Shown piece after piece: positions 13,809 to 39,294 of a stretch of DNA of 64,000 nucleotides (within the stretch, counting starts at the first letter, position 1; each line of letters opens with the position of its first letter). The position numbers were made by a program, and so were the translations under genes. The notes beneath the pieces are model-generated. The model was given only the letters and a program-made list of their open reading frames with translations, had not been told where the DNA came from and ran no database searches. This DNA is from Plasmodium brasilianum (lineage: Eukaryota > Apicomplexa > Aconoidasida > Haemosporida > Plasmodiidae), in the NCBI RefSeq assembly GCF_023973825.1, contig NC_090124.1, positions 1,419,501-1,483,500 on the forward strand, written 5' to 3'.

Positions 13809-14399
13809 ATTGGAAAAAATTATTTTCATATAGTGCAATGGGTGGAGAAAATTGAAATTGCGATTTTCAAGAGCCGCTTGGAGAGTCAACCCTCTGAAAC
13901 TTTATTGAAAAATAGGATATGGATAAAAGAATCAAACAGTTAAAGGAGTAAACAACAAAAAACAAAAAAAAAATTAAATAAAAAATTGCATGTTACATAT
14001 TACAAAAAACAAATAACAAATAACAAATTACAAATTGCATAGTACATAATACATAGCAAATAATACATAGCACATATTACATATCGCAGAATATGTATTA
14101 CATGTTACACATTTAAGGTGTTAAACTGAAATGCCTTGAAATGTAATTCTTTCATTTTAAAAAAAGAGGAAAAAAAAATATACAACAAAAATTTAAGTAA
14201 AAAGTAGTCGCACAAAATTAGTAATAATTATAATACACACACATATAAATATATATTTATATGCATGTATATGCATATGAATGAATATACATATGTATAC
14301 TCATATTTCCCGCCTAACCACCCATACCTCTTTAAAATAAAGCCAATTTCTTATACCCTTTAAGATATAGTAAAACGCAAGCTTCAATATTAAAGAATA
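13172..14399. other. Head-to-head intergenic region (putative bidirectional promoter)
   Basis: Separates the start codons of the minus-strand helical-repeat gene and the plus-strand synthetase gene. It contains a 27-bp minisatellite (about 13232-13600), a poly-A run near 13661, a (TA)n tract (13774-13798) and A-rich sequence with ACAAAT and ACATA motifs up to 14300. No gene is seen. Confidence 0.65.
13232..13600. repeat. 27-bp minisatellite, degenerate toward one end
   Basis: The unit is about GACCATGCAATG followed by TTCCTAAATTCGCCT. Roughly ten good copies grade into diverged copies after about 13470. The length is divisible by three, and both strands are open through it, which produces long artificial repeat proteins in both directions. 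Confidence 0.9.
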
Positions 14400-17300
14400 A
14401 TGGCTGAAAAATACACTTTGGAAAATTTTTTGGAACTGAAAAACGTGAATGATAGGTATATTGTTGACCTAAACACAGAGAAAAAACAATTTTCATATAA
14501 GGAGTTATATGAAGAGATAGAAAACTTCCTAATTTTTTTTAAAAGTATAAATATCATACCGGGTGATGAGATTTCCATAATTTTGTTTAATAGCATTGAA
14601 TATGTGTTATCATTTTTAAGCATAAACTTTAATAAGAACATATGTTTACCGCAAAATACAAATCTGAAAAAAGAAGAGTATATAAAATATTTAGTTAACA
14701 ATTGCAAGTATATAATTATACATGATTATAATGAAAATGATGAAAATTACGCTAGCATTAAAAATAAACATAGTTATTACAAAAATGTTTGTGCATATAT
14801 AGAGGACTTAGCTGAAGAATACCAAATTGGTTTAATTAAAATAAAAAAGAACAAAACTAAACCGTATTTTACGTATTCATATACAGCAAATGGGATTGAC
14901 AAAAATGATAGTAAAATGGTAGCTTCAAAGGAACCGCTAAAAGGGGTAGGTAACCCAAAGAATGATATTTGTCTACATTTGCACACATCAGGTACAACAA
15001 GTAAAGTAAAAATAGTACAATTAACAAATAATAATATTAAAACAACGATTAGAAATATTATAAATTCGTATTATATAAATAAAGAGGACAACACAGTTAT
15101 TGTTATGCCTTTATATCATGTGCATGGATTAATTGGTGTGTTATTACCTATACTTTTTTCCAAAGGGAATGTATTATTTCAAGTTGGTCATACGTTTAGT
15201 GCCTCGGAATTTTGGGAAAATGTAGTACATTATAATATAACCTATTTTTCAGCTGTTCCTACTATACTTAATATATTGTTAATAAGATATGAAAAAGATT
15301 ATATAATAAAAGGGAAAAAAAATGATGAAAAAGTACAGCACAAGTTGAAATTTATTAGAACTTCAAGTTCTTATTTAGACGAAAAGTTAGAAAAAGAAAT
15401 TGAAGAAAAATTTGCAACAACAGTTCTACAAGCATATGGAATGACAGAAGCTTGTCACCAAGTAAGTTCAAATAAATTTATTATGAACAATTCAGAAAAT
15501 GTTATATCAGGAGTAAATAAAAAGTATAAAAGTGTTGGGATACCAAATGTAGGAGTTATAATATATAATGAAGAGAAAAAAAAAATATGTGATTATAATG
15601 AGTTGGGAGAAATATGTATCAGCGGAAAAAATATTATGTATGGTTATAAAGAAGCAAACGATAATGATCATATATTTGTTTATGTGAATACAATAGAGCA
15701 AAAAACAAATTATATGATGAAGAACAAATTTTTAGAAATATCTGAAAGGGTTCCTTTCTTTAAAACAGGAGATATTGGGTATATAGATGAAGATAATTTT
15801 CTTTTTATTTCAGGAAGGATTAAGGATATCATAAATAGAGGAGGAGAAAAAATTATTCCAAATGAGATAGATGATGTGTTAAAAGGGAACAAACTGGTTA
15901 GGGATTGCTTAACCTTTGCATGTAAAGATGATATATATGGTGAAGTTATTAACAGTGCAGTAATTCTGGATGAACGGGGATTAATGATCGATGGTAATGG
16001 GGAGGTATATGCCATTCAGGCTGGGCAGAACAGTCAGACCAACCAAACCAGTCAGGCTTGTAAATCTAATCTGAGTATGACTTTAACAACTTCGAGCCTC
16101 TCTCCACATGTGAGTTCGGAAAAAAAAGATCCTATTAAGGAAGAGGGAGAAGTAGACGCACTGAAAGAATATGACATTAACATGTCCATAAATCTTAATT
16201 TGTATTATTACAAGTACAGAGAAGAATTAATGAGTTACGTGAAAAACCGTTTAGCAAATTTTAAAGTTCCCAAGAATGTATATTTTGTTAATAATTTTTT
16301 AAAAACGGACACAGGAAAATTATCCAGAAGAAAAGTTTCAGAGAGTACTGAAAATTTGAAGAAAATGGAAATAAACGTTTTTGATGTAATTGCATTAATT
16401 TTTAGAAAGTATGAAATAGATTATATATATGGATTGTATGGAATACCAATAAATAAAATAATCTACAGTTTTATTAAAAATGGTATTTATTATATAAGTT
16501 TTCGAAATGAAATAAATGCATCCATAAGTTGTAATTATGTTAACTATTTTGATATGGATCAGAACAAAAAAAAAAAAAAAAAAAAAAAAAATTGGTATTT
16601 TATTAACATGTTCAGGTCCAGCATTTATAAACACCTTAAGTGGTTTATATAATGCAAAAATTAATCATTTCCCAATGGTATTAATATGTTTTGAGAATTA
16701 TATAGATGAAAAAATAAGTTTATTTGAAAAATATAATAATTTTCAATACTTTGCACAATATAATTTTTTGAAAAAAGCAAAAGAAATATGTTTTGAGTCA
16801 TATCATGTAGATTCATTAGAATCTTTTTCTGAACAATTTCATAACTGTGTATGTACCGCTATTAAAAACAAATATCCTGTATATTTAAATATTGATTACA
16901 AGTTAATAGGGGAAAAAATAACAATAGACAATGCTATTAAAACTTTGGAAGTAAGTGACAGAAATGTAGAAGCTTATTTTGGCTATACGATGAACAGAAT
17001 AGTACCGAATGAAGAGCAGTTATTGTTCGCTAAACTAGTGGATTCCTTTTGTAATATATATAAATCAAATAAAAAGGGAGTTATATTTTTAGGTATTAAC
17101 TGTAATGAAGGTATTAAATATATATTGAAGATAGCACAACTTTTGAAATTGCCTATTTATACAACTGCTATGGCTAAATCTTTTATAAAAGAAAATTATG
17201 TATATAATGTTAATGCATGTAAGTCGTACCTATTTGAAAATATTGATTTTTGCTTTGCTATTGGATCTTTGTTTAATTTTTATTTTAATTTTGGAAATTT

Positions 17301-18624
17301 TAAAAATTGTAAAAGACAAAATATGATATGTATTGATTTGAAGAATGATCAATATGAACAGGGGAACCCCTCTATTTGTGATCATTATTTTTTTTTCGAT
17401 TTATATTATGTTTTAAAAAATTTATATCTTAAAATTAAGAAGAGCCCTATCACAATTGATGAGAATGTGGATATAGATGCTAGGAAAAAATGGATAGCAG
17501 ATTTGGGTGATATAAAAAAAAGAACTATAGACAAACTTTGCATGGATGTAAAAAATGTCTATTTTGGAAAATATGAAAATTGTGGGAATAACAAATTCAC
17601 GATGGAACAAGCTCTGCTAATTATTCGGAACATTCTGATTGATTATTTCTTTTCAAAAAATGGCATTGATGAGATGTTTAAAAAAAAATATTTTATAAAT
17701 TATTTAAAATATGTAGATAGTAAGTTAATAGCTGATTTTGTGAACACTGCGCATGATAACAAAAGTGTATGTTCTGACTCCATCAGAGGAGCCCTAAATA
17801 TGTTATCCCCTTTAGCAACAGATGATGAAGTTCCCGAAGAGGACTGCGACTTGAGTGATAGCAGCTGTGATGAGTATCTGTCGGATGAACAAGTATGGAA
17901 GAGTTCTACAGAACGAAATAGCACCAACAACGGTGGTAATAATTGTGGTAGTAATAATCGTAGCAAATGTACGGCATATTCAAAATTCCTGACGAAGGAC
18001 ATAAAAGAAAGAATTATAATCACCAATGAAGGGTCCATAACGTTAATCCTTGGAATATTGTATTTGCCCAAATTTGGTCCATTCAATTATGTCATACCAC
18101 AGATTAATGGAATGATGGGGATAGCAATGAATGCATCTATCTCTGCAGCTTTGAACAATTCTGGAAATATCGTTTTTTCTATATTAGGTGATTCTTCCTT
18201 TGGGTTCACGTCGAACGAAATTGAGACCATGTGCAGGTTAAAGTTGAAAATTGTCCTCATAATTTTTAATAATAATGGCATATACGGAGATAGGGACTAC
18301 CAAGAGAAGGGGGTAAAGAAGGTGAAAGGAAACGAGAAAGATGACGAGAAAGGAGTTGTGAAAGATGCCTCTAGGGAAAAGGGAAAAATTGTCGATACCA
18401 ATTTTTACTTGAAAAATCCGTCCTCTTTATACTTTTTCAGCAAATATGAAAATTACATTATTTCACATGGAGGATATGGTTGTTACATTGACAACAAAGA
18501 AGAATTTATAAAAAAAATGAAATATGTAACAGATGAAAACTTTAAGAATTTCCCTGCATTGCTTAATGTAATTATTCAAGACAATGGTTCTGTTAACTTT
18601 CATTTTGATAAACTTATACAATAA
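14400..18624 (+). CDS. ACS12: Bifunctional acyl-CoA synthetase (AAE3/Pcs60-like) fused to an oxalyl-CoA decarboxylase-type ThDP enzyme; frame change in a poly-A run
   Basis: Residues 1 to about 650 form an adenylate-forming acyl-CoA synthetase. Visible motifs are the phosphate loop TSGTTSKVK (about 196), YGMTE (346), TGD (about 457), GR.KD..NRGGEKI..NEI, and the C-terminal KTDTGK with the catalytic Lys (about 640). HVHGL and the stretch around YGMTEACHQVSSN resemble plant AAE3 and yeast Pcs60 oxalyl-CoA synthetases. From about 660 a complete ThDP-enzyme fold follows: the PYR domain with GIPINK and FRNE (catalytic-type Glu, about 704), a central domain, and a PP domain with GDSSFGF (about 1263) and NNNGIYGD. 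This pattern fits the oxalyl-CoA decarboxylase/2-hydroxyacyl-CoA lyase family. The frame changes in a 26-A run (16566-16591) inside the PYR domain. One fewer A would give a continuous product of about 1,407 residues. Low-complexity inserts occur near 16015-16150 and 17770-17990. No peroxisomal C-terminal signal is present. Confidence 0.88.
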
Positions 18625-21160: not shown

Positions 21161-24109
<2,949 letters not shown>

Positions 24110-27101
24110 CTTGAAATATAAATAGTCTCTATGCATTGTGCATGTAAATCCTCTTCAGGCACTAAGCGTGTATATAAGCCATATGAACAACGTGCGTATA
24201 GTATTCTCCATTATATGTACGTGTATGTATTCTTATGAAAATCGCAGTTTATGTAGTGTATCGCATATATATGCACATTTAGATGTTTACATATACCTTT
24301 TTAATTTTTTTTTTTTTTTTTTTCATTTTTGTTATAATAAGAGCATACATTTTTTAATTAAATAGGGGGCGAAATATAAGGAAATTTTGCCTCCCACATT
24401 TTATAAAATAGGAAAAAAAAAAAAAAAATTAAGTCAAACCTATTATAATTTTAATAAAATATATAAGTTGATCGTGTGCTTTCTTAAACATTTTACATCA
24501 CAACAAAATGTATAAAGTTGTATATAACATGGACGTTTACCTTTTAAATGTAGTTATGTTTTTTTTAAAATAAGTTTATTTGTAGTGAAAACCGCAAGAC
24601 GGGTGAAAAAATGCAGTTACGGGGAAGTAAACATGCGCATGTATATGTACATATATATGTATGTATGTATATGGAGGAAGAATTATGTATTGTACATGCT
24701 TGTAACTGTGCAACACTATTCTTTTTTTTTTTCTTCCCTGACTACAATAAATTAAAAATAGAATGTTATTTATAAACAATGAACTTGACACTTTAGTGTT
24801 TTTATGCATTCATTTTATTGTTAACGTGCTAGGCAAAATAAAATAAAAATAAAATAAAAATAAAAATAAAATACATATAGTGAAGCTGAACAAGGTAAAT
24901 TATTACACCAGGTTGGACGACCTTTTGCAGAAAGAAGTAAAAATATGGGTATTTCTTCACAGGGCATTATATATATTAATATATAAACAATTTTTTGTAA
25001 TAGCATAAAAATGTACAAATGTCGTAATTATGCTGCCTAGGAATATACTACTGTATATATATATATATATATATATACATATACATTATATGTGCTTATA
25101 CATGCATATACTTGCACATATATACATTCATGCGGTTAATTCTTATACTTGGAAAGAGGTAAAATTAAGTCAAACAGAATATTCTACTCAACATTTAAGT
25201 GGAGAAAAAACTGGAAAGAATAGCTCTATACAAATTACGCTCTCCTAGAACAGTTTCCGATAAAGAATATGAATAGTCAGTACAAAACTGTCCTGTCTTC
25301 TACACTCATATATATACACATAAACGTTAGTGAAATATTAATTAATTTTCTGTAAAATTTAGATTGCCTTAATAAAAAAAAAAATGAAAAATGTAGAAGT
25401 TATATAATTTCAAATATGATATAAATTGTGAAATATTAGCTAAAGGTAGACTGCTCCTATTTGGTATGTACGCATGATACAGCATACTTGCAAACGTTTA
25501 TATTCGAAATATTTTTGCAATAACTTACAGGCGAAATAATTTGTAATTCTTTTTGAAACAACTTGTTTCTTTCCAAAATAATGCTTTTACTCTTCGCTAC
25601 TTGTATTATTATATGCTTATACGAGTATGAAACTACATTTACACAATAAAGGCATATATGTTTTATTTTTGCAAAAAACTCCTTTTATTGTTTTTTTTTT
25701 TTTTTCCGAATAACACAAGATAAAAACAAGGAACTGTTTTTATTTTTCATTCTTTTTATAGTGTCATATTTTAAACCTTTTTTCAGAAAAGAGATAGCAT
25801 CACACTAGTTTTATGACTTGTACATATTTTTTGCATTTTTTATGCATTTATTGTTACTTTTTTTTTATCTTTTTTTTTTTTTATTGCATGTTAATGCAAA
25901 ACATATGGCTTTTAAGGAGAAAATATCTGTGTATATCTAGCCAAAATGTTAAAAAATATAAGGGAAAATAAAATAATAATAATGATAAAAATAATTATAT
26001 ATGTAAATACTTATCTTGTTCTCCTATATTCAGTGTAAAATGATGAAGAAAGAGTTATTTGTGCATTTCTACAAATGCATATTTGTACATTTGTATATCT
26101 GTATATTTCCATATTTCCATATTTCCATATTTGCACATTTGCGTATTTGGAAATTATACGCTTCTTTTAAACTCCCATCACGACAAACGTATTTCAGAAA
26201 TGTCACTACTGTAATTAAGCTTCTTTAATAACAAGGCGCTCAGAATAAATTTTTCATTCTTTTTTGTTTTGAATAAACATTTTTGAACTGTCTATTTTTG
26301 ACAAAAACATTTTTGCGTTATATTATTTTCCACTTTTTTTTTTTTTTTTTTTTTTTTCAATTTAAATATATAATATACTGAAACTTTTTTAAAGAGCGCA
26401 TATATATATATATATGTGTATTTGTGTATGTATGTATGTATGTATGTATATGTATATATGCATATCGTACCTCCAAGTCTTATTTCTTAAAACAGCGCAA
26501 GATTAATTGTTATGCCTAATATGCGCTGTCCTGAATATTATTTCATACATATGGACATAAAACGAACTTTACAGTATTTCTATCATAAAAATAGGATCAA
26601 ATTGATCATTTCAGAATATATATATTTACGTGTATTGTTTTTCCTTTACTTCTGAGTAAGACACCATTTGACCAAACCTAATTGTTATTTTAATTTAATA
26701 AAATATATATTTTTTCATAAACATGTATACTGTAATTCCTCAATCTGAGTTAATATTTCTTGCTTAATCGTAACAATCTTTTGATGTGGGAAAATATTCA
26801 TTTGCAATAGTGCAATGTGTAAATATAAAAAAGGAGAAAAAAAAAAATATATATATATATACACATAGGTGTATACTCTGACGTATATGTAAGAATATAT
26901 AATAGCGTATAGATTGGTGTATTGTGTTCCTACATAATCAAATACGTACGCTTATACATATGAAATATATGCAGTGTGTGCATATGTTAGATAAACCGCA
27001 GAAGGTACTGCAAGTTTGCAAAATTGAACAAGCTGAAGATAAGCAAAGCACAGCAGATCAATGAGTCCATTGCAAGAAAAGGACCACTACATTTCACCGA
27101 A
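24110..27101. other. Long intergenic region between CDC48 and the giant unknown gene
   Basis: No gene is supported. It contains homopolymer and (TA)n runs (25057-25078, 26401-26415), AAAAT repeats (24840-24871), a short CATATTTC repeat (26105-26135) and an imperfect region with a 7-bp inverted repeat (26493-26499 with 26522-26528). The frame of the following gene is open from 26991, upstream of its first ATG, so a 5' exon may end in this region. Confidence 0.6.
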
Positions 27102-30100
27102 ATGGATCCTAATAACATAAAGTTTTCAACAAATAATGAAAAGATTTGTCCTAATGATGTTGTGTTTAATAAAGTAATAAGTATGTCACATTTGGAAAGT
27201 AAAAAAAATAAGGGTGTACTGTTACATAATCCAAGTATAAACAACCATGAAATGAAAGATGAACAAAATTTCTGTAGAGCGCAATATGTTCTTGGCGTAA
27301 ATGGGGATAAGTACAGTAATTCCAACAAAGACTCTTCCGAAAACGCCATCAGTATGACAATCAATTTGCAGAATAAGAATGAGCCAAGAAGCTTGCATCA
27401 TAAAAATGAGGAGACCAATATGCGAGGTAAATATAATACGGATAAGAAAAAAAACAAAAACTACGTGAATATGTTTAAAACTAATATGAAGAATGTTATC
27501 AACAATATAATTAATAGGAGTTTAATATCAGGGGAAGTAAATAATAAGGACATAAATAATATAGAAGTGAACAAAATAAGTACAGAAAGAAATAAAGCGG
27601 AAAATAGGATACTATACAAACATGAAAGTATAGAGTTGTCTAATACAAATGGGAAAGGAAACGAAGTAAAATTTACACCTTTTAGTTCTGTTAAAACAGG
27701 AGAGATAAAAAAAATCAACAATGTAAAAAGTAGCAATAAAGAAAAAGATCCTTTACTTATTAAAAGATCATTGCTTAAATTAAAAAATGACGATAAACAA
27801 GTGAAAGGAATAAATATAGGAAAATGCTTTTCCTATAGTACAAATAAGCATATGCTTTTAAATGAAAATGTAAGTTGCAAGAATAATTTGGAAAAAGGCA
27901 AAAAGAGTGAGGAGGATGAGAATGATAATAATAATAATAATAGTAGTAGTGCATTAAGGTACAATAATGCAGTAATTAACTATAATGCAATAAATAGAAG
28001 TAGTGCAATAAATAGAAGTGGCACAATAAATAGAAGTAGTGCAATAAATAGAAGTAGTGCAATAAATAGAAGTAGCACAATAAATAGAAGTAGCGCAATG
28101 AATAGTAGTATCGCAATATATAGAAGTAGTGCAATGAATAACAATAATGATCCTACTACTAAGAGTACTACACTAAATGGAAACAATATGGCAGCAAATG
28201 AAGCAACAACTAGCGAACAGAACAAAGTAATTTCACGCATTTCTCTCATTAAACATAACAAGATAAACGAACTACATCCTAATTTGAAAAGAATAGCGTT
28301 AGATTCGAACATTTTAAATAATAAAATTAACCCAGCTGCTTGTGCACAAAACAACAGATTAAAGAAGAACGGGTTAAGGGAAAAAGTGAAAGAAAAAAAT
28401 AGATCTGTCCTATCAGGTATTAATAAAAATGAAAAGATTCAAAATAAAGCTAGTTTATATTGTCCTATGTATATATCAAAAAAAGAAAATTGTCAACGTC
28501 AAGAGAAAAGTAGGACGCCTATGAGTAATGACAGTTTTCATAGAAATCTAAAAAAAACATTAATTAATATTATTACGAACTCAACTAAAGACGAAAATGA
28601 CAGAGATTATGATATAATTAAGAAAGCATGTCCTGATTTTGTAAAAAAAAGCGATAATACTTTATATAAAAGTAGTTTATTAAATAAAGAGAAAAGGAAA
28701 CCAGAAAGTAAGTACTCTTCACCCTCAAATTTTATTAATGCAAATGAAAGAAAATTGCTACGAATAAACGAAGAAAACGTTGAAACAAAACAACAGTTAA
28801 TGAGAAGATATTCATCCTTAGTTCACAAGAGAAATTCTATATTTAAAAAAAAAGGTGCTACCGAAAGGTGTAGTGTTTCTATTAATGAAAAAATTGAAAA
28901 TGTAAGTGAAAATGTAAATGAAAATGTAAATGAAAATGTAAATGAAAATGTAAATGAAAATGTATGTGAAAATGAAAATAGCCAAAATAAACTAATCAAT
29001 GAGAGGAGTGAATTATCAGCATGTAAAAAGGAGAAAGTCGCTGGAACCAATGAGAAGAAAGCCGAGGACGAAACAGGTAGATCTAACATGATCTTACCAT
29101 TTATTACAACTCATAAATGTAAGCATGTGTCTAGCGTACTGTTTGAACGGAATAATAATATATGGGGAAAGAAAAATTCCCTATTCAGGAATAAAGAATC
29201 AGTGAATGGTAGTTCCCCTTTATCGCTAAAAAAAAGCACCATCGGTAATGATACTAGCATGATCCATACTAGTTCCGTCTATACTAGAATTAGGAAGCCT
29301 AGTAGTAATAATGTTAGAAGTGAAAAGCCTTGCAGTTATAATATTAGTAGTGGTAAATCTGATGGCAATCATGTTAGTAGTGGTAAACCTAGTAATATGC
29401 AGAGCAGTACACCTAGGGGTAATTATCGTAGTGGTAATATGTATAAACCTAGTGCCAGCCCAGTGAAAGCTGTACAGAATAAAAGTAATGCATTACCAAC
29501 AAACATATATAAAAGAGCAAGCACAATGAATATGCCAATACAAAAAATGAATATTTTAGATTCAAATAAAGATTTAGCAAATGGTAGGGAAATAGTGAAT
29601 GCTCCAATGAATCAGAATGCTAATGAACTAAGAAAATGGTTTAATGTTAAAGCTCAAAATAAGTTGACTGGAAATGTGAGGGAAAATTTTACCCCCCAGA
29701 ACAACAAACGTGTGAAGGATTATTCGGACGCATTAAAATTATCTTTAAGCAAAAAATATGGTGGTACATTAAAGAATGAGCGATACTTGCAGTTAGGTAT
29801 TAATCATGAAAAAATTTCGAAGCCTAAGGTTAGCGAAAAAATGAAGCATAATGCTGCTACTGATAATGCTGCTACTGATAATGCTGCTGCTGATAATGCT
29901 GCTACTGATAATGCTGCTACTGATAATGCTGCTACTGATAATGCTGCTACTGATAATGCTGCTACTGATAATGCTGCTACTGATAATGCTGCTACTGATA
30001 ATGCTGCTGCTGATAATGCTGGTACTCATAACTCGGTTTATGAGCCAGATGATGACAAAACTGTCGGTGCTAAACATGGCGGTGATAAAATAGACACCAC

Positions 30101-32636
30101 ACCACTCAGTATCGATATAAATATAAAGAATTATGAACACGATGCAGTTCTAATAAGTGAAAGAAAAAATGGTAAATATAAAGGTGACATTTCATCAGAA
30201 CCAACTAGCTTTCACAAAACGTATATATATAAACATACTAAAGAGAATAATTTAACTATGGTAAAAAACAGCCTGATTGAGCAAGGTAATTATATTACAG
30301 GAGCACCGAACATAACATATGGAAAAGAAATTGTAACTAATTCGGACCTTAAAAAGTATAACTCAAACAAAAAGTATATAAAAACAGATGATATTCTACC
30401 TTATGAGCAAATTAAATGTGTTACCAATATAATGGAAAATGAATTCAAACATGGTATGAACAAAACAAATACTGATAAGGTAACTACAAATTCTGGTGAT
30501 ATAACCAGTTATATAAACAGTTTAACTGATGAAAATTCTGCATTAATATATGATCAACAAAATGAAAAGACTATAAATCATCTGGACCTTGACAAAGCAA
30601 ACGACGTGTGCCACAGAGATGGAAGTAAATATTCATCTAATGAGGAGCTTATATGTACATACGAGAACATCAAAAGGAAGCATGGGTCTACAGGCGCACG
30701 ACAAGGTGGCACAAAGGGGAAGAGTTCTAGTGAGAATGAAAAATTGGAAGAAAAATTGGCGGAAAGTTTATCCAAGAAACTACACGAAAATATTGTAGAT
30801 AACTCTACCCAAAATGATCAAATGAGCGGTACCAAAAATAATTTTACGCTTAATTTGGGAAAAGAAAAAAGGACGGATATTAACAACCTGGAAGCATTTA
30901 AATATGCTAAAGAAATAAAAAGTCATTATAACATAGAAGTAAAGATAAAAAAAGAACTAATTGAAAATGAATCAGCTAAGAATGATAACACCGATGCTCT
31001 AAATTTTGAGTGTCCTACTAACAATATGGACAAAAAAGAAAAGGAAAAATATGAGGAAAATTGTAACAAAATTGACCATGTATATATAAAAAAAGAATTT
31101 ACAGTTGATGACTCAGATGCAAGAAAAAGGAAATATTTCATAAACGAAGTAAAAATCGATGAAGGGATAAACAAAGACGAAAAATACGATAAACACGATA
31201 AACAGTTAAAACAATTGCTTTTAAATCGTAAAAATAACTTAGAAAAAAAGCTTCAACAAAAGGATGATTTGTCAGCTAGTGATGCACATGTAAATAAGTT
31301 AGCTCCTTCAAATGATTATCATATGGAAGAGGTTGTATCGAAGGAGAAAATAAATGAAAAGGAGATAAATTTGTCCAAGGATAACAACAACGGCGTTACA
31401 GTGTTGCTCTTAGACAATGATGCATTGAAAAGAAAGAGCGAACAAGAAAAGGAGCAAAAGAATACAGAGAATACTTTAACTGGTAAAAACAAGAGCATTT
31501 CAATAATTGGGGGAAATAATAGAACTAAAAAGTTCTTACTGCACTATAGCATATGCAAAATTAAAAAAAAAAATGACAAAAAGGCATACACAAAAAAAGG
31601 GGTAAACAAAGGAAATAATGATGAGATAAATGGAAAAAATGCTGACGAAATAAATGGAAAAAATGCTGACGAAATAAATAGAGAAAATGCTGACGAAATT
31701 AATAGAGAAAATGCTTACGAAATTAATAGAGAAAATGCTGACGAAATTAATAGAGAAGATGCTAACGAAATAAATAGAGAAGATGCTGACGAAATAAATA
31801 GAGAAGATGCTGACGAAATAAATAGAGAAAATGCTGACGAAATAAATAGAGAAAATGCTGACGAAATAAATAGAGAAAATGATGACGAAATAAATAGAGA
31901 AAATGATGACGAAATAAATAGAGAAAATGCTGACGAAATAAATAGAGAAAATGCTGGTGAAATTAATAGAGAAAATGATGACGAAATAATTAGAAAAAAT
32001 GATGACGAAATTAATAGAGAAAATAATAACCCGGTAGAAACAAATGAACGTAGTGAAATTGATGCTTACAGGGATAATATTATTATTCCTATCTCAGAGG
32101 ACCAAATGATCGAGGAAAAAATTAGTGATTTAAATATGCCACAATCGTGTAATGAAAATTTTTCTTTACATAAATATGGGAACGTTGTGACGAATCCAAA
32201 TAAGAGCAGTACTTACAATTTCTTTTCAAATCGCAAAAAAAAATATTACAATTTTAGTTTAATTAATCATAAAATTAATGTGGGCAAGAGAGTTACAAGG
32301 TTATGGAAAGAAAAACAAAATGAAATGAAAAAAGCAACTTGTGTCTTAAAAGATAAAGCTCAACTGGGAGTTACTAATACAGAGGTATTTCCTGCTAAGA
32401 AAAATAATGAAAAAGAACAAGGTAAATATAAGAAAAAACGAAAATTTGAAAATTGTATGACCAATATGACGACTTCACACAAGTTTAGGAAAAAAAAAAA
32501 AATTAAACTGAGTTACTATCCATCGAAAAAATGGGACAATGTGTGCAACAGAGATAAAAGGAAACACTTCAAGGAATGTGAAGCGAAAGAAGTGAATGAG
32601 GAAAGAAAAAAAAAAAAAAAAAAAAAAAATGTGTAA
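27102..32636 (+). CDS. Giant unknown protein, 5' segment (probably continuous with the next entry)
   Basis: Function not recognised. The frame is open from 26991 (after a TAG at 26988). The first in-frame ATG is 27102, and the residues before it look coding-like, so an upstream exon is possible. The protein is hydrophilic and almost wholly Asn/Lys/Glu/Ser-rich, with at least four in-frame minisatellites: an NRSSAI-type array (about 27975-28130), NENV (about 28900-28970), DNAAT (about 29848-30020) and DEINRENA (about 31615-32030). The last 150 residues are strongly basic and end in a Lys run and a stop only seven bases past a 24-A run (32606-32629). The next large frame starts in that same run. 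With no room for a promoter or terminator between them, I read the two as one gene with a frame change. Confidence 0.8.
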   Translation: MDPNNIKFSTNNEKICPNDVVFNKVISMSHLESKKNKGVLLHNPSINNHEMKDEQNFCRAQYVLGVNGDKYSNSNKDSSENAISMTINLQNKNEPRSLHHKNEETNMRGKYNTDKKKNKNYVNMFKTNMKNVINNIINRSLISGEVNNKDINNIEVNKISTERNKAENRILYKHESIELSNTNGKGNEVKFTPFSSVKTGEIKKINNVKSSNKEKDPLLIKRSLLKLKNDDKQVKGINIGKCFSYSTNKHMLLNENVSCKNNLEKGKKSEEDENDNNNNNSSSALRYNNAVINYNAINRSSAINRSGTINRSSAINRSSAINRSSTINRSSAMNSSIAIYRSSAMNNNNDPTTKSTTLNGNNMAANEATTSEQNKVISRISLIKHNKINELHPNLKRIALDSNILNNKINPAACAQNNRLKKNGLREKVKEKNRSVLSGINKNEKIQNKASLYCPMYISKKENCQRQEKSRTPMSNDSFHRNLKKTLINIITNSTKDENDRDYDIIKKACPDFVKKSDNTLYKSSLLNKEKRKPESKYSSPSNFINANERKLLRINEENVETKQQLMRRYSSLVHKRNSIFKKKGATERCSVSINEKIENVSENVNENVNENVNENVNENVCENENSQNKLINERSELSACKKEKVAGTNEKKAEDETGRSNMILPFITTHKCKHVSSVLFERNNNIWGKKNSLFRNKESVNGSSPLSLKKSTIGNDTSMIHTSSVYTRIRKPSSNNVRSEKPCSYNISSGKSDGNHVSSGKPSNMQSSTPRGNYRSGNMYKPSASPVKAVQNKSNALPTNIYKRASTMNMPIQKMNILDSNKDLANGREIVNAPMNQNANELRKWFNVKAQNKLTGNVRENFTPQNNKRVKDYSDALKLSLSKKYGGTLKNERYLQLGINHEKISKPKVSEKMKHNAATDNAATDNAAADNAATDNAATDNAATDNAATDNAATDNAATDNAATDNAAADNAGTHNSVYEPDDDKTVGAKHGGDKIDTTPLSIDINIKNYEHDAVLISERKNGKYKGDISSEPTSFHKTYIYKHTKENNLTMVKNSLIEQGNYITGAPNITYGKEIVTNSDLKKYNSNKKYIKTDDILPYEQIKCVTNIMENEFKHGMNKTNTDKVTTNSGDITSYINSLTDENSALIYDQQNEKTINHLDLDKANDVCHRDGSKYSSNEELICTYENIKRKHGSTGARQGGTKGKSSSENEKLEEKLAESLSKKLHENIVDNSTQNDQMSGTKNNFTLNLGKEKRTDINNLEAFKYAKEIKSHYNIEVKIKKELIENESAKNDNTDALNFECPTNNMDKKEKEKYEENCNKIDHVYIKKEFTVDDSDARKRKYFINEVKIDEGINKDEKYDKHDKQLKQLLLNRKNNLEKKLQQKDDLSASDAHVNKLAPSNDYHMEEVVSKEKINEKEINLSKDNNNGVTVLLLDNDALKRKSEQEKEQKNTENTLTGKNKSISIIGGNNRTKKFLLHYSICKIKKKNDKKAYTKKGVNKGNNDEINGKNADEINGKNADEINRENADEINRENAYEINRENADEINREDANEINREDADEINREDADEINRENADEINRENADEINRENDDEINRENDDEINRENADEINRENAGEINRENDDEIIRKNDDEINRENNNPVETNERSEIDAYRDNIIIPISEDQMIEEKISDLNMPQSCNENFSLHKYGNVVTNPNKSSTYNFFSNRKKKYYNFSLINHKINVGKRVTRLWKEKQNEMKKATCVLKDKAQLGVTNTEVFPAKKNNEKEQGKYKKKRKFENCMTNMTTSHKFRKKKKIKLSYYPSKKWDNVCNRDKRKHFKECEAKEVNEERKKKKKKKNV
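29848..30020 (+). repeat. 15-bp coding minisatellite (DNAAT repeats)
   Basis: About eleven copies of GATAATGCTGCTACT, with a few GCTGCT variants, in frame inside the giant gene. Confidence 0.93.
31615..32030 (+). repeat. 24-bp coding minisatellite (DEINRENA repeats)
   Basis: About seventeen copies of an eight-codon unit translating as DEINRENA, with single-base variants (ENDD, EDAD, GKNA), in frame inside the giant gene. It forms a highly charged Asp/Glu/Asn/Arg stretch. Confidence 0.93.
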
Positions 32637-35600
32637 TACCAAGTGTATGCTTAAGTATAAAAAGGGCAATAGTAATATGCAGCAAAATCGAATTTTATTA
32701 AATACTGATGAAGAGAATGGAAAGCAAAAAAAAAAAGAAAAAAAAAAGAAAATAAAAAAAAATGAAATAAAAATAAATGAATTAAAAATTAATGAAATAA
32801 GAATAAATAAAATAGCAAATGTACAGGAGGAAGTACAAAAGAAGTACACAGACAAGGGTAGTGAAAACATCTTCTTTTATGAACATGAATGGGTAACCAT
32901 AATTTTGCGAATTATAAATAATAACAATTTCCATTTAGCAGAAAAATTGATGATTTTCATTTTTCAAAAAGAGGAACAGTTATATAGACAGTATTTTATA
33001 GAAGCTAAGGAAGAAGCGTTAAATAACAGGGAAGGTAAGAAATGTAACAAAAGCGACTGCACAGGGGTGAATGGATGTATAAACAAGAATACAAATAAAA
33101 GCTGCACCAGCAAGAATGGTCAAGATGAAAGATTCTGCATAGGAAATAATGATACTGAAGATGGATATTATGGAGGTTGCAATGATCATAATGGCGATAG
33201 TCGTGAGTGCAGAGCTGAGGGGAAGAGAAAGGGGAAGAACCTTTCTCCTTTCATGGAACAAATATTTGACAACTGCCCTCAGGAATGGCCTCTCTTAGAT
33301 GTAGGTATTCTGATTATAGTTTCTCAAATCGTTTGTTACATTTTTAACATGAACAAATGGGACATATTTTATGAGGGATGTAAAATATTTGAAAAGTACT
33401 GCATTGCAATTTTATTAAATTCTTCTTTGATTACATCTAAAAAGGATGGAAGCAGACTATTAATGTTTGAGCATGACTTTTTCTATAAAATAATTACACC
33501 AAGGGGGGGTGAGCCTAAAAGCGGTATTAGTAATGTTGGCTATACAGGCTGCAGTGGACGTATGAACAACATTTTGAACTACCACATGAATTATCTAACG
33601 AATGACTACCTTATTAAAGAGAAAACCATATTAGATGTAATATTTCTAGCCTTGGCATATTATATAACTGTTAGTCAGAATTTAAGTGAGTACATTGAAA
33701 AGAACAATATTCTGTGCTACTTAAACTTTTTTCAAAAAAATGCAGGTGTGAGGAAAAGGGGATTAACGAATGAAGATAGCGAAAGGGGAAAGAAGGAAAC
33801 AAAAAAGCGGGTAAATATGCCAGGAGATCGATCAATTAGACCAAATGGACCACATGGACCTGATGGATCTAATGGATCCAATGGATCAGACGGACCTAGT
33901 GAATCAACAAATAAAACAAAAGAAGCAGGGGGAGTGAACAAAATGGAACTATCCCTTGCTAACAGGCGGAGCATACAGAAAAGCAGATATGCCTTTTCCA
34001 GATTTTCCGAAAATTTGCAGAATAGAATAAAGGGAGAACCTCTGCAGCACGAAAAGAGCAAGATAAAAACGTACGAAAGGAATGTGAAAAGAAGGTTAAG
34101 CCTTCTTAGAACAACTAGATGTATAAGCGAAGTACAGAGGGGGAAGCATGTAAAGGGTAGTAGTAGTAGTAGCCGTAGAAGTAGCAGTAGTAGTAGATGT
34201 AGTAGTAGTAGCTGTAGTAGTAGTAGCTGTAGTAGTAGTAGTCGTAGTCGTAGTAGCTGTAGTAGTAGTAGTCGTAGTCGTAGTAGCTGTAGTAGTAGTA
34301 GTCGTAGTAGTAATAATGGTAGCCACGTTAAAAGGGGGGTATACGAAGGAATTGGTAGAGATAGTAGCATTAATGAGAGCTTATATGCTACAGAGTTACT
34401 TACGCAAAATGGGCATATAAAGAGAGAGGGAAACACCAAGGAACAGAGGAAATCTAAATCTAAAGGAGAAATGAATAGACAAAATATAGGAGCATGTGAT
34501 ATAGAAAACTTTTTCCTATTCAAGAATAACAAAATTAACACTATTGTCAAATACCATACGAATAGTGCCTTTGAAAAATTATTATGTTTAATAATTATCG
34601 AAATTTTTAACCTGATTTATGATACTAGAGAATACTCAGTGGAAAATATACTAATCATTAGAAAATTTTTTCGCGTTTTCCTTAATTATACACAGAAGAG
34701 ATTTATATATTGGTCAATACAAATGCACTCTGTGGAAGTGAGTGACCTAGTGGAACGTTGCTCACTGGAAATGTTGAATACCATTTTTACAGAAGACATA
34801 TTAAAAAATATAAATGTACAAAGTGTGGATGGAAAGGCTAGTATCGTTATGGATGAAGAGGAAGGGGGTGAAAAGAGTACAATTAAAAATTATAAAGAGA
34901 GTAATAAAATACTACCATTTCCTTGCAAAGTTTATGACAACTATTTTAATATGTGGATGTGGATTGAACGAATATTTAATGAAAATTTTTATGAAATTAA
35001 TAATCTAATGTACAACAATACATATCATTTTGAAAAGAATTATATAGAGAGCGGAGATATATATATCAACTATGGAAAAATAGAATTAATTAGTCATAAT
35101 ATTAAAAGGTTTTCTTCTTTGCAAAAACATAATTGCGCTATTTTAAAAAAATACTGGATCATATTTGGATTAAAAGTAAAAAACAAAAAAATGGAGAGTA
35201 GTAAGGAATGGTTATCCCCCAGTTCATTACTTACATACAACAGTTTTAGGGATACTACTACTACAGCTTCTAATAATAATAGTAATAGTAGCAGTAATAG
35301 TAGCAGTAATAGTAGCAGTGATAGTGACAGTAATAGGGACGGTAATAGGGACGGTAATAGGGACGGTAATAGGGACAGTAATAGGGACAGTAATAATGAT
35401 ATTCTCCGGGTAGCTACGCAGGATGCATTTAAAAATAAATCATTTTTTACTTTAGAAAAAAAAGACTACAGGCACGACATACTTACGTTTCATTTCTTAT
35501 CTTCCATAGAATCCATTTGTAACGTTTATCAATCGATGGAGGAAATACCATCATTCTTACATCTAAAAAATAAAAACCACTTGATAAATTGCATAATTAA

Positions 35601-37960
35601 GAAGAAGAGAGATGATGACAGTAGTATAAATTTAGTACGGGCGACTAGTACAAATGAGGGGAAACTCCTATCGTTAAGCAGTACCACTTCACTCTTCAAC
35701 AGGGATGGCAAAGATAACCAAGATAACGAAGGTGACAATGATAACACGGATAACAGGGACCAACATATAGGTAGTACTTATCCCCTAAACGAGGAATCAA
35801 ATGGCGACATCCTCTGGTTAAAGCAGTTAAAAAGAAGGCTAAAAATCTACGATATACAGTGGCATGAAGAATATGAAAAGAGATATTTAAATTTAGTTAT
35901 ATGTATGAAAATGATGAAGAATAAATTTAAAGACAACAAATTGTTTAACCATATTATGAAGTGTAATGTTTCGTCTATTTGGCTAAATAAGAATCAAATA
36001 TATCTCCAGTACATTCAAATAGCTATTAACTGTAAGTTCCTTTTAGGATCCTCTTACCATGACATCTACCTGTTCATAAAAAAAAATTATGCATTTGTTC
36101 TCAATCTAGTTTGGCGGAGCGTAAATAAGCAGGGGTCGGAAAAAAATAAAAAAAATAAACTAAAATATAGCAATATGGGAGGAAGCAAAATGAAACAAAA
36201 CAAAGAAACGGAAAGACTCACCAGTGCCAGTGACTTGTGTGCAATGGATGATGAGGCAAATACAAACCTTAACACATGCACCCAATATAAGTATAAAGAA
36301 AATTTGATCGATGAAAAATTTTTTGCTATGTCTTGGGAAATAGCTAATTTTTATTTCTGTATTCTTTACTACAAACTAAAACTAAGAAGTATATTAGTCG
36401 AGTTATTAAAATGGGTTGAATTTTTTGAAAAAGTAAAAAATAGTATAAAGTTTGAATCTTTTAAGTTTCGCTGCACTTCATATATCTTGCATATTTTAAT
36501 TTTTATGAACGATTATAAATATGCTCATAAAGTTGTAAAGCATAACTCGAAGTATTACTTTAAAGAGAGTCATCTGAGGAATGAAAAACTAGATGATAGA
36601 CAAGGAAAAGATGTCTGCTCCTATTGTGGAAGGGACCCACATCTGAGTAGTTACTCAAATTGGAGTAGGAACACCAATGTGTGTAACCGCCAATCAGGTA
36701 GGAAGGAAGCAAATAGAACAGCAGGTAATGAAATGGAGGAGGGCGTAAAAATGTACTGTAGTAGAAGTGTCTTTCCGTATGATGACAGAAAAAGCTTATA
36801 CTATGCACATATAATAAACAAATGTTATTTATACGAAAAATGGATCAATTTTTTGCTGAAAAAATATAATAGTTTAATTACGTATTTACTAATAAGGAAA
36901 AACATTATAAAATTAATTCTCTTTAATAGTAAAAATTTACGTTTTCTTATGATAAAGAAAAAGGAAAACATATCAGTAAAGAGAGTTAGTGCAAAAATGG
37001 TAAGACTACAACAGGTTATATTATCACTTTATTATTTATGTGTCAAGTTGTATAAAAATTATTATTATCATTCATCTATATTGCATTATAATACATCAAA
37101 ACAAATTTTAGATGCATCTAGATATTTAAATATTGTTATTAAAAAAAAAGAAATAACCATGAATTATATGAATTTATGTACTCGCCAGAAGGGGCAAAAC
37201 TTGAAAGAAGAAGCAAACAGTGACAAACCAAGTTGTTCGATTCATCATACATTATCAAATAACTTGCTACATGTAGATACTTTATGTAAGGACAACAACA
37301 ATAGAAACAGCAGTAAGGACAACAACAACAATAGAAACAGCAGTAAGGACAACGTCAACAATAACAATAACAATAATAATAATAATAATAATAGTATAAC
37401 AACATTTTTGAAAAATTATTCCTTAAATTATGGACAACATGATTATACGAACCTTACCGATGAAACGTCCACATATTCGAAGTTTCATTCAGGATATTAT
37501 TACCCAACTAATAGTAAAGAGAACAATGAAAATAACAATCAGGAAGAAAACTCCGACGATATGTTTTATATGCATGCACTAATTCTAAGTATACAAATAC
37601 AATACATCTTATCTATTTGTATCATTATTTGTTCGGACTTGTTTAATTTTCCAAAAAAAGTAAAAAGACTCATAAAAATAAATGATAAAAATACAAGTAT
37701 AAAAATTTCAAAAAATATGCACATGTACATGCTCTATGTCCCAACTTTATTTAATTATAAAATATTACGTAAACATTATAGAATAATTAATGGGTGTAAT
37801 TTTAATAAGCACAAGATGCAAATGAAAAGAAAAAAAAAAAAGAAAAAGAAAAAGAAAAGTACCATTGCTTATAAACGAAATGGTCATTTGGTCAGTACCT
37901 ATGCACAGAATATTCCTTGTACAGAAAAATTGAAAAAATCGAACGAACATTTCATTTTTG

Positions 37961-37991
<31 letters not shown>

Positions 37992-39294
37992 GAAAGTGAA
38001 AGGTTATACTAATAGAATGTATAACGATACATTTGATAACAATGATGATTACTATAATCAGAATGACTGTACGAATCTCACTTTTGTGTCAAGTGGACAA
38101 AATATTAAACCTGCTGATATGGTGGTATCTTCAAAATATTTACTGAATCGGACGTACAACAACAGTGCTGATGAACGATATAGCAGGGGGTGGAACTCGG
38201 ACACCATAGCTGGATCAATGAACAATAAGAAAAAGTTGGACAAATCAAACAGGTCGAAAGCGTTAAACAAATTGGGAAGGTCAAACAGGTCGGAAGCGTT
38301 AAACAAATTGGGAAGGTCAAACAGGTCGGACGCATCAAACAAGTCGGACTCGTCGAACAAATCGTACGCCATTTCCACCTTCAGTGACGTCGTTTCTGGT
38401 TCACATGGAAATACCATTCAGCCTCTTTTAATAAAAAAAAAAAATAGGGAAAAATATATACATTCTACAATATCAAAAGTAAAAAAAACAAATGAAAGGA
38501 ATATAAATACAAAAAATGGCTATCACATTTTAGTTAAGATTTCTACGTGGCTCAGCAAAAACTCAGCTTGCCAGCTTACCTGGATAGCACAGGTTTCTTC
38601 CTATTCATTTACTGTTCATTCCTTTCCCCCCGTTTTGTTTGTATGTACATTCGCTGTTTGATTTTTTTTTTTTTTTTTCGCGCAAAATGAGTTGTATTCA
38701 TATGTATATATATATATATATATATATGAGCGTACATGCGTGCGCCAATTTTTGTTTTCCTATTAGAAACTCTTCAAGATGTGTTTGCCCGAATTACTGT
38801 GCATCGCTCTAACTCTGCAAGCGAACATGTTTATGAGCAAAAGCATCTTAACGGTAAAAAAGGGGAAGAAACGGAGGAAACAAATATATATGTGTATATA
38901 CATATATGTATTATCCGAAGCATAAGCACGTATATACATACATACAAACATGTACGCACATATATATATATATATATATATATGTATGTGCTCATACACA
39001 AACCTACCTTAATCATTTTTTTTTTTTTTCTTTTGTTAGAACATAAAACGAATTGACAGAATTTTGAGGCTGTGTGCAGAGAGTCCTCAGCTCGTGTATT
39101 TTGCTACGGAGTCGTTAAATAATTACAAAAATAAACAAAATTTTAAGTTGTACAGAAATTATTTTAATATAAACAAAAAATATAGAAAAATATTTCTGAA
39201 AAAAAAAAAAGACATAAACAATTCTAGAGATATTCTGTACAAATTGTGCGAATATTTTTTGAAGCCAAGCGAGAGCAACAAGCTAGCTAATTAA
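32629..39294 (+). CDS. Giant unknown protein, 3' segment, three exons (probably continuous with the preceding entry)
   Basis: Function not recognised. Exons are 32629-38592, 38767-38853 and 39040-39294, all joined in phase 0 by GT-AG introns. The short middle exon (29 codons) and the last one (84 codons plus stop) replace an implausible read-through tail. If the segment were a separate gene its start would be the Met at 32629 or 32596. More likely it continues the preceding frame through the 24-A run. Hydrophobic helical blocks (about 32880-33000, 33290-33430, 34560-34720, 35860-36110, 36310-36560, 36790-37140 and 37560-37640) are separated by Asn, Ser and Lys inserts, including a Ser/Arg tract encoded by AGT/CGT triplets (34160-34315) and a 29-A lysine run (37961-37989) that keeps frame. 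One CSYC..D pair is too short to call a zinc finger. The combined product would be about 3,900 residues. Confidence 0.8.

Follow-up and report, generated by a model that had tools for sequence, protein, structure and literature searches.

The ACS12 orthologue of Plasmodium brasilianum joins an AAE3-type synthetase to a thiamine diphosphate enzyme and may act in oxalate breakdown

The stretch of DNA analyzed here (the window) comprises 64,000 nucleotides of Plasmodium brasilianum contig NC_090124.1, positions 1,419,501 to 1,483,500, and all positions below are those of the window. At 14400..18624 on the plus strand lies the orthologue of P. falciparum ACS12, whose translations encode a synthetase half followed by a thiamine diphosphate (ThDP) half, as also seen with Pfam and in the deposited P. 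malariae protein P0001. The synthetase half contains an AMP-binding domain of the AAE3/Pcs60 type (PF00501, 14457..15647, residues 20-416; best PDB matches 6qjz, 8aff, and 5ie0) and the AMP-binding_C lid with the lysine motif KTDTGK (PF13193, 16218..16319, residues 607-640). The PYR domain of the ThDP half (PF02776) was found in two parts. The first (16374..16526, residues 659-709 of frame 1) covers profile positions 2-53 and carries GIP and FRNE, the latter with the catalytic Glu; the second (16582..16698, residues 19-57 of frame 2) covers positions 62-100 in the other frame. The central domain (PF00205, 17062..17352) has lost K222 and R282, residues conserved in the family and numbered here as in the oxalyl-CoA decarboxylase (OXC) of O. 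formigenes. In the PP domain (PF02775, 18064..18315), which runs from GDSSFGF to NNNGIYG, the cofactor and Mg binding motif is intact. All of these features are on the plus strand. The Pfam matches of both halves are well above chance. In the first frame, AMP-binding was matched at 4.4e-50, AMP-binding_C at 2.4e-06, and the start of TPP_enzyme_N at 3.2e-05, the last being slightly below the curated cut-off; the second frame gave the remainder of TPP_enzyme_N at 5.7e-08, TPP_enzyme_M at 2.3e-08, and TPP_enzyme_C at 1e-15. The locus, its coordinates, and the motifs TSGTTSK, YGMTE, TGD, GR.KD, KTDTGK, GIP, FRNE, GDSSFGF, and NNNGIYG, all named in a preliminary description of this DNA, were found in the translations.

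That description had both enzymes in order within one locus. This holds for a single gene, but not for a single open frame, a point on which the description made no remark. The gene spans two frames (stop to stop, 14394-16652 and 16528-18624) that join at a run of 26 A (16566..16591, plus strand), and the first residues of the second TPP_enzyme_N match overlap this run. Because TPP_enzyme_N is divided between the two frames at the run, the locus was taken as one gene, and two separate genes were ruled out. Two frames are also what independent genes or a pseudogene would present, a reading with next to no chance of being correct in this genome: the break falls within one Pfam domain at the A run, no interruption is present in the P. 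malariae protein that otherwise matches it exactly, the relatives are single proteins, and another pair of frames in the window joins at an A run in a similar manner. Outside the A run, the two pieces (721 and 676 amino acids) are identical to P0001, which has 1407 amino acids in a single frame. A second pair of long open reading frames in the window, 26991-32636 and 32596-38661, likewise joins at an A run; the two overlap at 32596-32636 around 24 consecutive A (32606), likely another frame change through A-run length. The length of the A run in this assembly is also the likeliest cause of the frame change in the ACS12 locus. A profile search of the parasite's own genome with TPP_enzyme_C gave one match, which is this gene.

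We take PFF0945c to be the older name of ACS12. Papers are cited here by PMC number. ACS12 corresponds to PF3D7_0619500 (PMC11005404), and a ThDP-binding fold has been placed beyond residue 664 of PfACS12 (PMC8717973), a position that fits the P. falciparum protein P0007. The preliminary description stated that the gene is usually called simply an acyl-CoA synthetase. This is correct for a drug-target paper, where PFF0945c bears that name (PMC3798273), but a table of ThDP enzymes from 2005 gives MAL6P1.231 and PFF0945c as oxalyl-CoA decarboxylase (PMC1084361), and two database names read long-chain fatty-acid Co-A ligase plus oxalyl Co-A decarboxylase, one of them adding "bi-functional enzyme." Both halves are thus already annotated, the decarboxylase in the 2005 paper and the two together in database names. 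In searches of an open-access collection, which leaves most subscription papers outside, no proposal of a joined synthetase-decarboxylase pathway for oxalate in Plasmodium was found.

The best PDB matches of the synthetase half were oxalyl-CoA synthetases (6qjz, 1.8e-71; 8aff, 9.8e-68; 5ie0, 4.1e-66; 8atd, 3.9e-44), and the next family followed at 6.8e-25. A tree was built from 48 chosen rows and repeated without five outgroup rows. All 12 haemosporidian rows fell within an AAE3/Pcs60 clade of 41 rows that includes AtAAE3, LsOCS, and ScPcs60 (support 100/99). Outside it were a 4CL, FadD, CaiC, and a further four AMP-binding genes from the parasite's own genome. The clade persisted in the repeat tree, where the 29 other AAE3-type rows within it were held together against the haemosporidian rows at just 44/77. 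All eight haemosporidian rows compared retain HVHG, S289, TEAxH319, and N(R/K)GGEKI (AtAAE3 numbers). Of these features, the 4CL (Nt4CL2), FadD, and CaiC have just the initial His of HVHG, His214, and lack both S289 and H319. We assume that His214, Ser289, and His319 are the residues that contact oxalate. The core motifs of adenylation (TSGTTS, YGMTE, TGD, GRIKD) and the C-lobe lysine (TDTGK) are also present. Sequence comparison therewith gives strong support to membership in the AAE3/Pcs60 oxalyl-CoA synthetases, in agreement with the preliminary description, and conversion of oxalate to oxalyl-CoA is a well supported prediction for this half.

Among NCBIfam models, the ThDP half of the P. 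malariae protein matched two OXC models best (160.7 and 143.6 bits); the next model reached 70.7 bits, and a model of 2-hydroxyacyl-CoA lyase (HACL) 58.2 bits. In a tree of 49 chosen rows, among them 14 of 30 bacterial loci and 2 of 12 PDB sequences of OXC and HACL, the Plasmodium halves grouped with OXC and the ThDP halves of other fusion proteins (28 rows, 99/100). Plant OXC sequences and yeast and human HACL1 were outside the sampling of both this tree and the synthetase tree. A constraint placing Plasmodium with TbHACS and 14 HACL-like bacterial rows was rejected in the approximately unbiased test (p-AU 0.015), which speaks against the suggestion in the preliminary description that this half could be a 2-hydroxyacyl-CoA lyase. 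The position of Plasmodium inside the 28-row group is not settled by the tree. An AlphaFold model of the second-frame piece (mean predicted local distance difference test score 70.8) was compared by Foldseek; rows 1-9 were all OXC, and in structure scores HACL and HACS tie with OXC. The half is, on these comparisons, an enzyme of the OXC/HACL family that appears nearer to OXC. Ordinary AHAS or pyruvate oxidase as nearest family was ruled out by NCBIfam, tree, and Foldseek. Trees had been proposed beforehand as the check on both assignments, and neither half was placed away from its expected family, AAE3/Pcs60 or OXC/HACL.

These placements bear on the reading of the gene as a fatty-acid enzyme, with activation of fatty or 2-hydroxy acids by the synthetase and cleavage of 2-hydroxyacyl-CoA by the ThDP half in α-oxidation. 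Database names such as "long-chain fatty-acid CoA ligase" point in this direction, as does a published table in which P. falciparum and Chromera are both scored as having HPCL2 (PMC6320678, table 2). In addition, a yeast pcs60 mutant was rescued by TgACS1, which is described as the nearest Toxoplasma homologue of Pcs60 and has been tied to β-oxidation (PMC11005404). We nevertheless regard a fatty-acid function as unlikely: the synthetase half clusters with proteins bearing the name oxalyl-CoA synthetase and away from both FadD and the further AMP-binding genes found in this genome, the ThDP half is apart from the HACL/HACS rows, and the table just cited scores P. falciparum as lacking PHYH (PMC6320678).

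The residues of the ThDP half were compared over 115 columns conserved at a 90% threshold in 18 OXC and fusion rows. The 15 HACL-like rows keep 92-103 of them, and the columns therefore characterize the whole OXC/HACL family. E56, GDSxFGF, NNxGxY483, and GxMG are kept in 10 of 10 Plasmodium rows. Seven columns separate OXC and fusion rows from HACL-like rows; Plasmodium is OXC-like at two of them (column 483 in all ten rows, column 34 in eight of the ten) and mixed at 105 and 242. At position 483, 80% or more of the 15 HACL-like rows carry G, and Y is also found in P0043, a transcript described below. An OXC of Arabidopsis, AtOXC, reported to be active and coexpressed with AtAAE3, has Phe120/Gln121 in place of Y120/E121 (PMC8004701). 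The third active-site residue is given there as Tyr488, which is number 483 when counted along 2c31. In one alignment register, the 120/121 stretch of Plasmodium reads NFQ, but the aligner placed this two columns off.

Several observations weigh against a plain reading of the half as OXC. The scores of 160.7 and 143.6 bits are below the curated OXC cut-offs (557 for NF006721 and 739.4 for TIGR03254), although the first cut-off is unspecific for OXC, since the P0043 half, on the HACL side, reaches 557.8; the second model gave 524.1 for that P0043 half, and the Galdieria half scored 671 and 653.6 with the two models. The Plasmodium branch in the ThDP tree is very long (5.17) and drew long-branch and odd-composition warnings. 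The ten Plasmodium rows keep 45-54 of the 115 columns, so that more than half are lost, and this retention is no better than that of AHAS, Gcl, and PoxB (37-57). R160 (replaced by K), K222, and R282, which presumably function in ADP binding, are lost in all ten rows; P161, R408, and the OXC-type S553 are also not kept, and columns 60, 107, and 295 of the separating set are not OXC-like. The cofactor site is intact, in surroundings that are greatly changed. Of the OXC-type assignment in the preliminary description, the kinship stands and the evidence for the function is weak.

Such a pattern might be expected if the synthetase half made oxalyl-CoA, or a related acyl-CoA, and the ThDP half had switched its reaction, for example to an acyloin-type condensation or another 2-oxoacyl decarboxylation. 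Retention of the cofactor residues in all ten rows goes together with loss of R160, K222, R282, and R408, all conserved in the OXC/HACL family, and of the OXC-type S553, and the PDB holds family members named lyase or synthase (HACS). A switched reaction is possible, though we consider it rather doubtful, given that NCBIfam, tree, and Foldseek all order the half nearest OXC, that Y483 is kept in every row, and that the half remains fused to a synthetase of the oxalyl-CoA type. The strong divergence could also be that of a noncatalytic remnant with a structural or regulatory role. This is very improbable: none of the ten rows departs from the Glu, GDS-N, and Tyr of the cofactor site despite much change elsewhere, and all 16 haemosporidian proteins among the matches listed, other than the truncated P0016, retain the half. 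OXC activity of the Plasmodium half is plausible and is our best single guess.

The distribution of the fusion was examined with the joined pieces as query, with X across the A run. Proteins of 0.55-1.75 times the query length were admitted, and 120 of 286 matches were listed. The best 60 of the 286 all have an AMP-binding and a ThDP domain. Carriers among these 60 include 13 named Plasmodium species, Chromera velia, the red alga Galdieria, green algae, charophytes, and bryophytes; the two enzymes are hence not confined to separate proteins in other organisms, contrary to the preliminary description. Conservation in Plasmodium, which it had put forward as a check, was confirmed: 17 of 17 haemosporidian proteins among the matches listed have both halves (P0016 is cut short; split orthologues would be outside the length range). 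A search with the synthetase half gave, as close kin among the matches listed, only P0016 and the 381-amino acid fragment P0128 from a short contig. When the haemosporidian ThDP halves were used alone as queries, the 14 matches were divided evenly between fusions from haemosporidians and weakly matching ThDP proteins (seven each), the low yield being probably due to the word limit. P0016 is a haemosporidian ACS12 filed as ACSF2 under the monkey Piliocolobus tephrosceles, and probably derives from the blood parasite Hepatocystis as a contaminant of the monkey assembly.

From the lid motif to the GIP of the ThDP half there are 36-37 residues in 5 of 5 haemosporidian proteins and 41-65 in 8 of 9 others (P0032 was unmatched). 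In the synthetase tree, the AAE3 of Arabidopsis and the Lathyrus enzyme, each with a single domain, branch with a pair of fusions from bryophytes (100/96) within a larger group of fusions (100/98); the corresponding values in the repeat tree were 100/97 and 100/98. This nesting among fusions suggests, from the synthetase side, that an ancestral fusion was split in seed plants. The transcript P0043 has the reverse order, a ThDP enzyme followed by an AAE3-type synthetase, and ends in SRL. As a single transcript with a ThDP half on the HACL side, it lends mild support to the pairing. Three proteins, P0054, P0055, and P0059, combine an AAE3-like domain, a carrier domain (PF00550), and a ThDP domain and all end in KLR; they were rejected as a further case of the fusion, the ThDP parts of P0054 and P0055 grouping with AHAS-type outgroups. 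At 30 bacterial HACL-like loci (flanks of up to 6 kb, some contigs being shorter), no close AAE3-like neighbor was found, and these neighborhoods lend the pairing no support. Three of these loci have a weakly similar AMP-binding neighbor (L015, L020, and L026, with 32, 24, and 27% identity to P0133).

Strict C-terminal ends resembling peroxisomal targeting signal 1 ([SAC][KRH][LM]) occur in 11 of the 43 proteins P0018-P0060, a set that includes truncated sequences, and none of the 16 haemosporidian proteins examined (P0001-P0017 without P0016) has one. In P. falciparum, all listed peroxins except Pex4 and Pex22 are marked absent in table 2 of PMC6320678, which marks HPCL2 as present. With no C-terminal peroxisomal signal in the Plasmodium copies and hardly any P. 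falciparum peroxins in that table, the P. falciparum copy is probably cytosolic.

We propose, with a probability of about 0.5, that the gene encodes one bifunctional enzyme that converts oxalate to oxalyl-CoA and then to formyl-CoA and CO2. The N-terminal half would adenylate oxalate with ATP and form oxalyl-CoA, the substrate being that of its family. The ThDP cofactor of the C-terminal half would then attack oxalyl-CoA, releasing CO2 and leaving formyl-CoA. Oxalyl-CoA might pass directly between the halves; such channeling is a hypothesis. Neither CoA_transf_3 nor FTHFS was matched in a six-frame search of the parasite's own genome that ignored introns, and formyl-CoA would therefore need hydrolysis to formate and CoA. 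More tentatively, haemosporidians may have kept a formerly peroxisomal, algal-type fusion after peroxisome loss, as a closed cytosolic machine from oxalate to formyl-CoA or formate, with plant AAE3 and OXC as split descendants of the same ancestral fusion. ACS12 is counted as one of 13 acyl-CoA synthetase genes; should it act on oxalate, it would not belong with the fatty-acid enzymes, and the parasite would have an unexpected oxalate or one-carbon route that requires CoA and thiamine. The protein treated as an acyl-CoA synthetase in the drug-target paper (PMC3798273) would in that case have to be assigned a different substrate. The relatives from algae and bryophytes, being fused, are proteins for studying oxalate breakdown of the plant type.

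Near the ACS12 locus, the translation of 21161-24109 is CDC48-like. It consists of a short first frame (21161-21502) and a main frame (21833-24109), probably separated by an intron.

Among known systems, the closest to the synthetase half are the AAE3/Pcs60 enzymes AtAAE3 (5ie0), LsOCS (6qjz), and ScPcs60 (8aff), with which it shares a clade (100/99) and the signature residues, including the NRGGEKI loop. Compared with these single proteins, Plasmodium adds the fused ThDP enzyme and low-complexity inserts and is without a C-terminal peroxisomal signal. OXC (EcOXC, 2q27; OfOXC, 2c31; plant AtOXC) is the nearest ThDP family and has E56, GDSxFGF, and Y483 in common with Plasmodium, whereas R160, K222, R282, R408, and S553 are missing from the parasite half, which is fused and scores below both curated cut-offs. 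HACL and HACS have the same family and fold, and their structure scores tie with those of OXC; Plasmodium is outside their group in the tree (p-AU 0.015) and has Y483, a position occupied by G in 80% or more of the 15 HACL-like rows. The fusions of Galdieria, green algae, bryophytes, and Chromera, several of them named 2-hydroxyacyl-CoA lyase, have the same halves in the same order. The ThDP half of these proteins is far nearer to bacterial OXC (671 bits in Galdieria versus 160.7 in Plasmodium), their linker is longer, and some have SKL- or AKM-like ends. In the oxalate operon of the E. coli type (oxc and frc), formyl-CoA is likewise made by OXC, but the genes are separate and oxalyl-CoA is obtained through CoA transfer instead of ATP-driven synthesis. 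The plant pathway proceeds through AAE3, OXC, formyl-CoA hydrolase, and formate dehydrogenase, in this order (PMC9090294).

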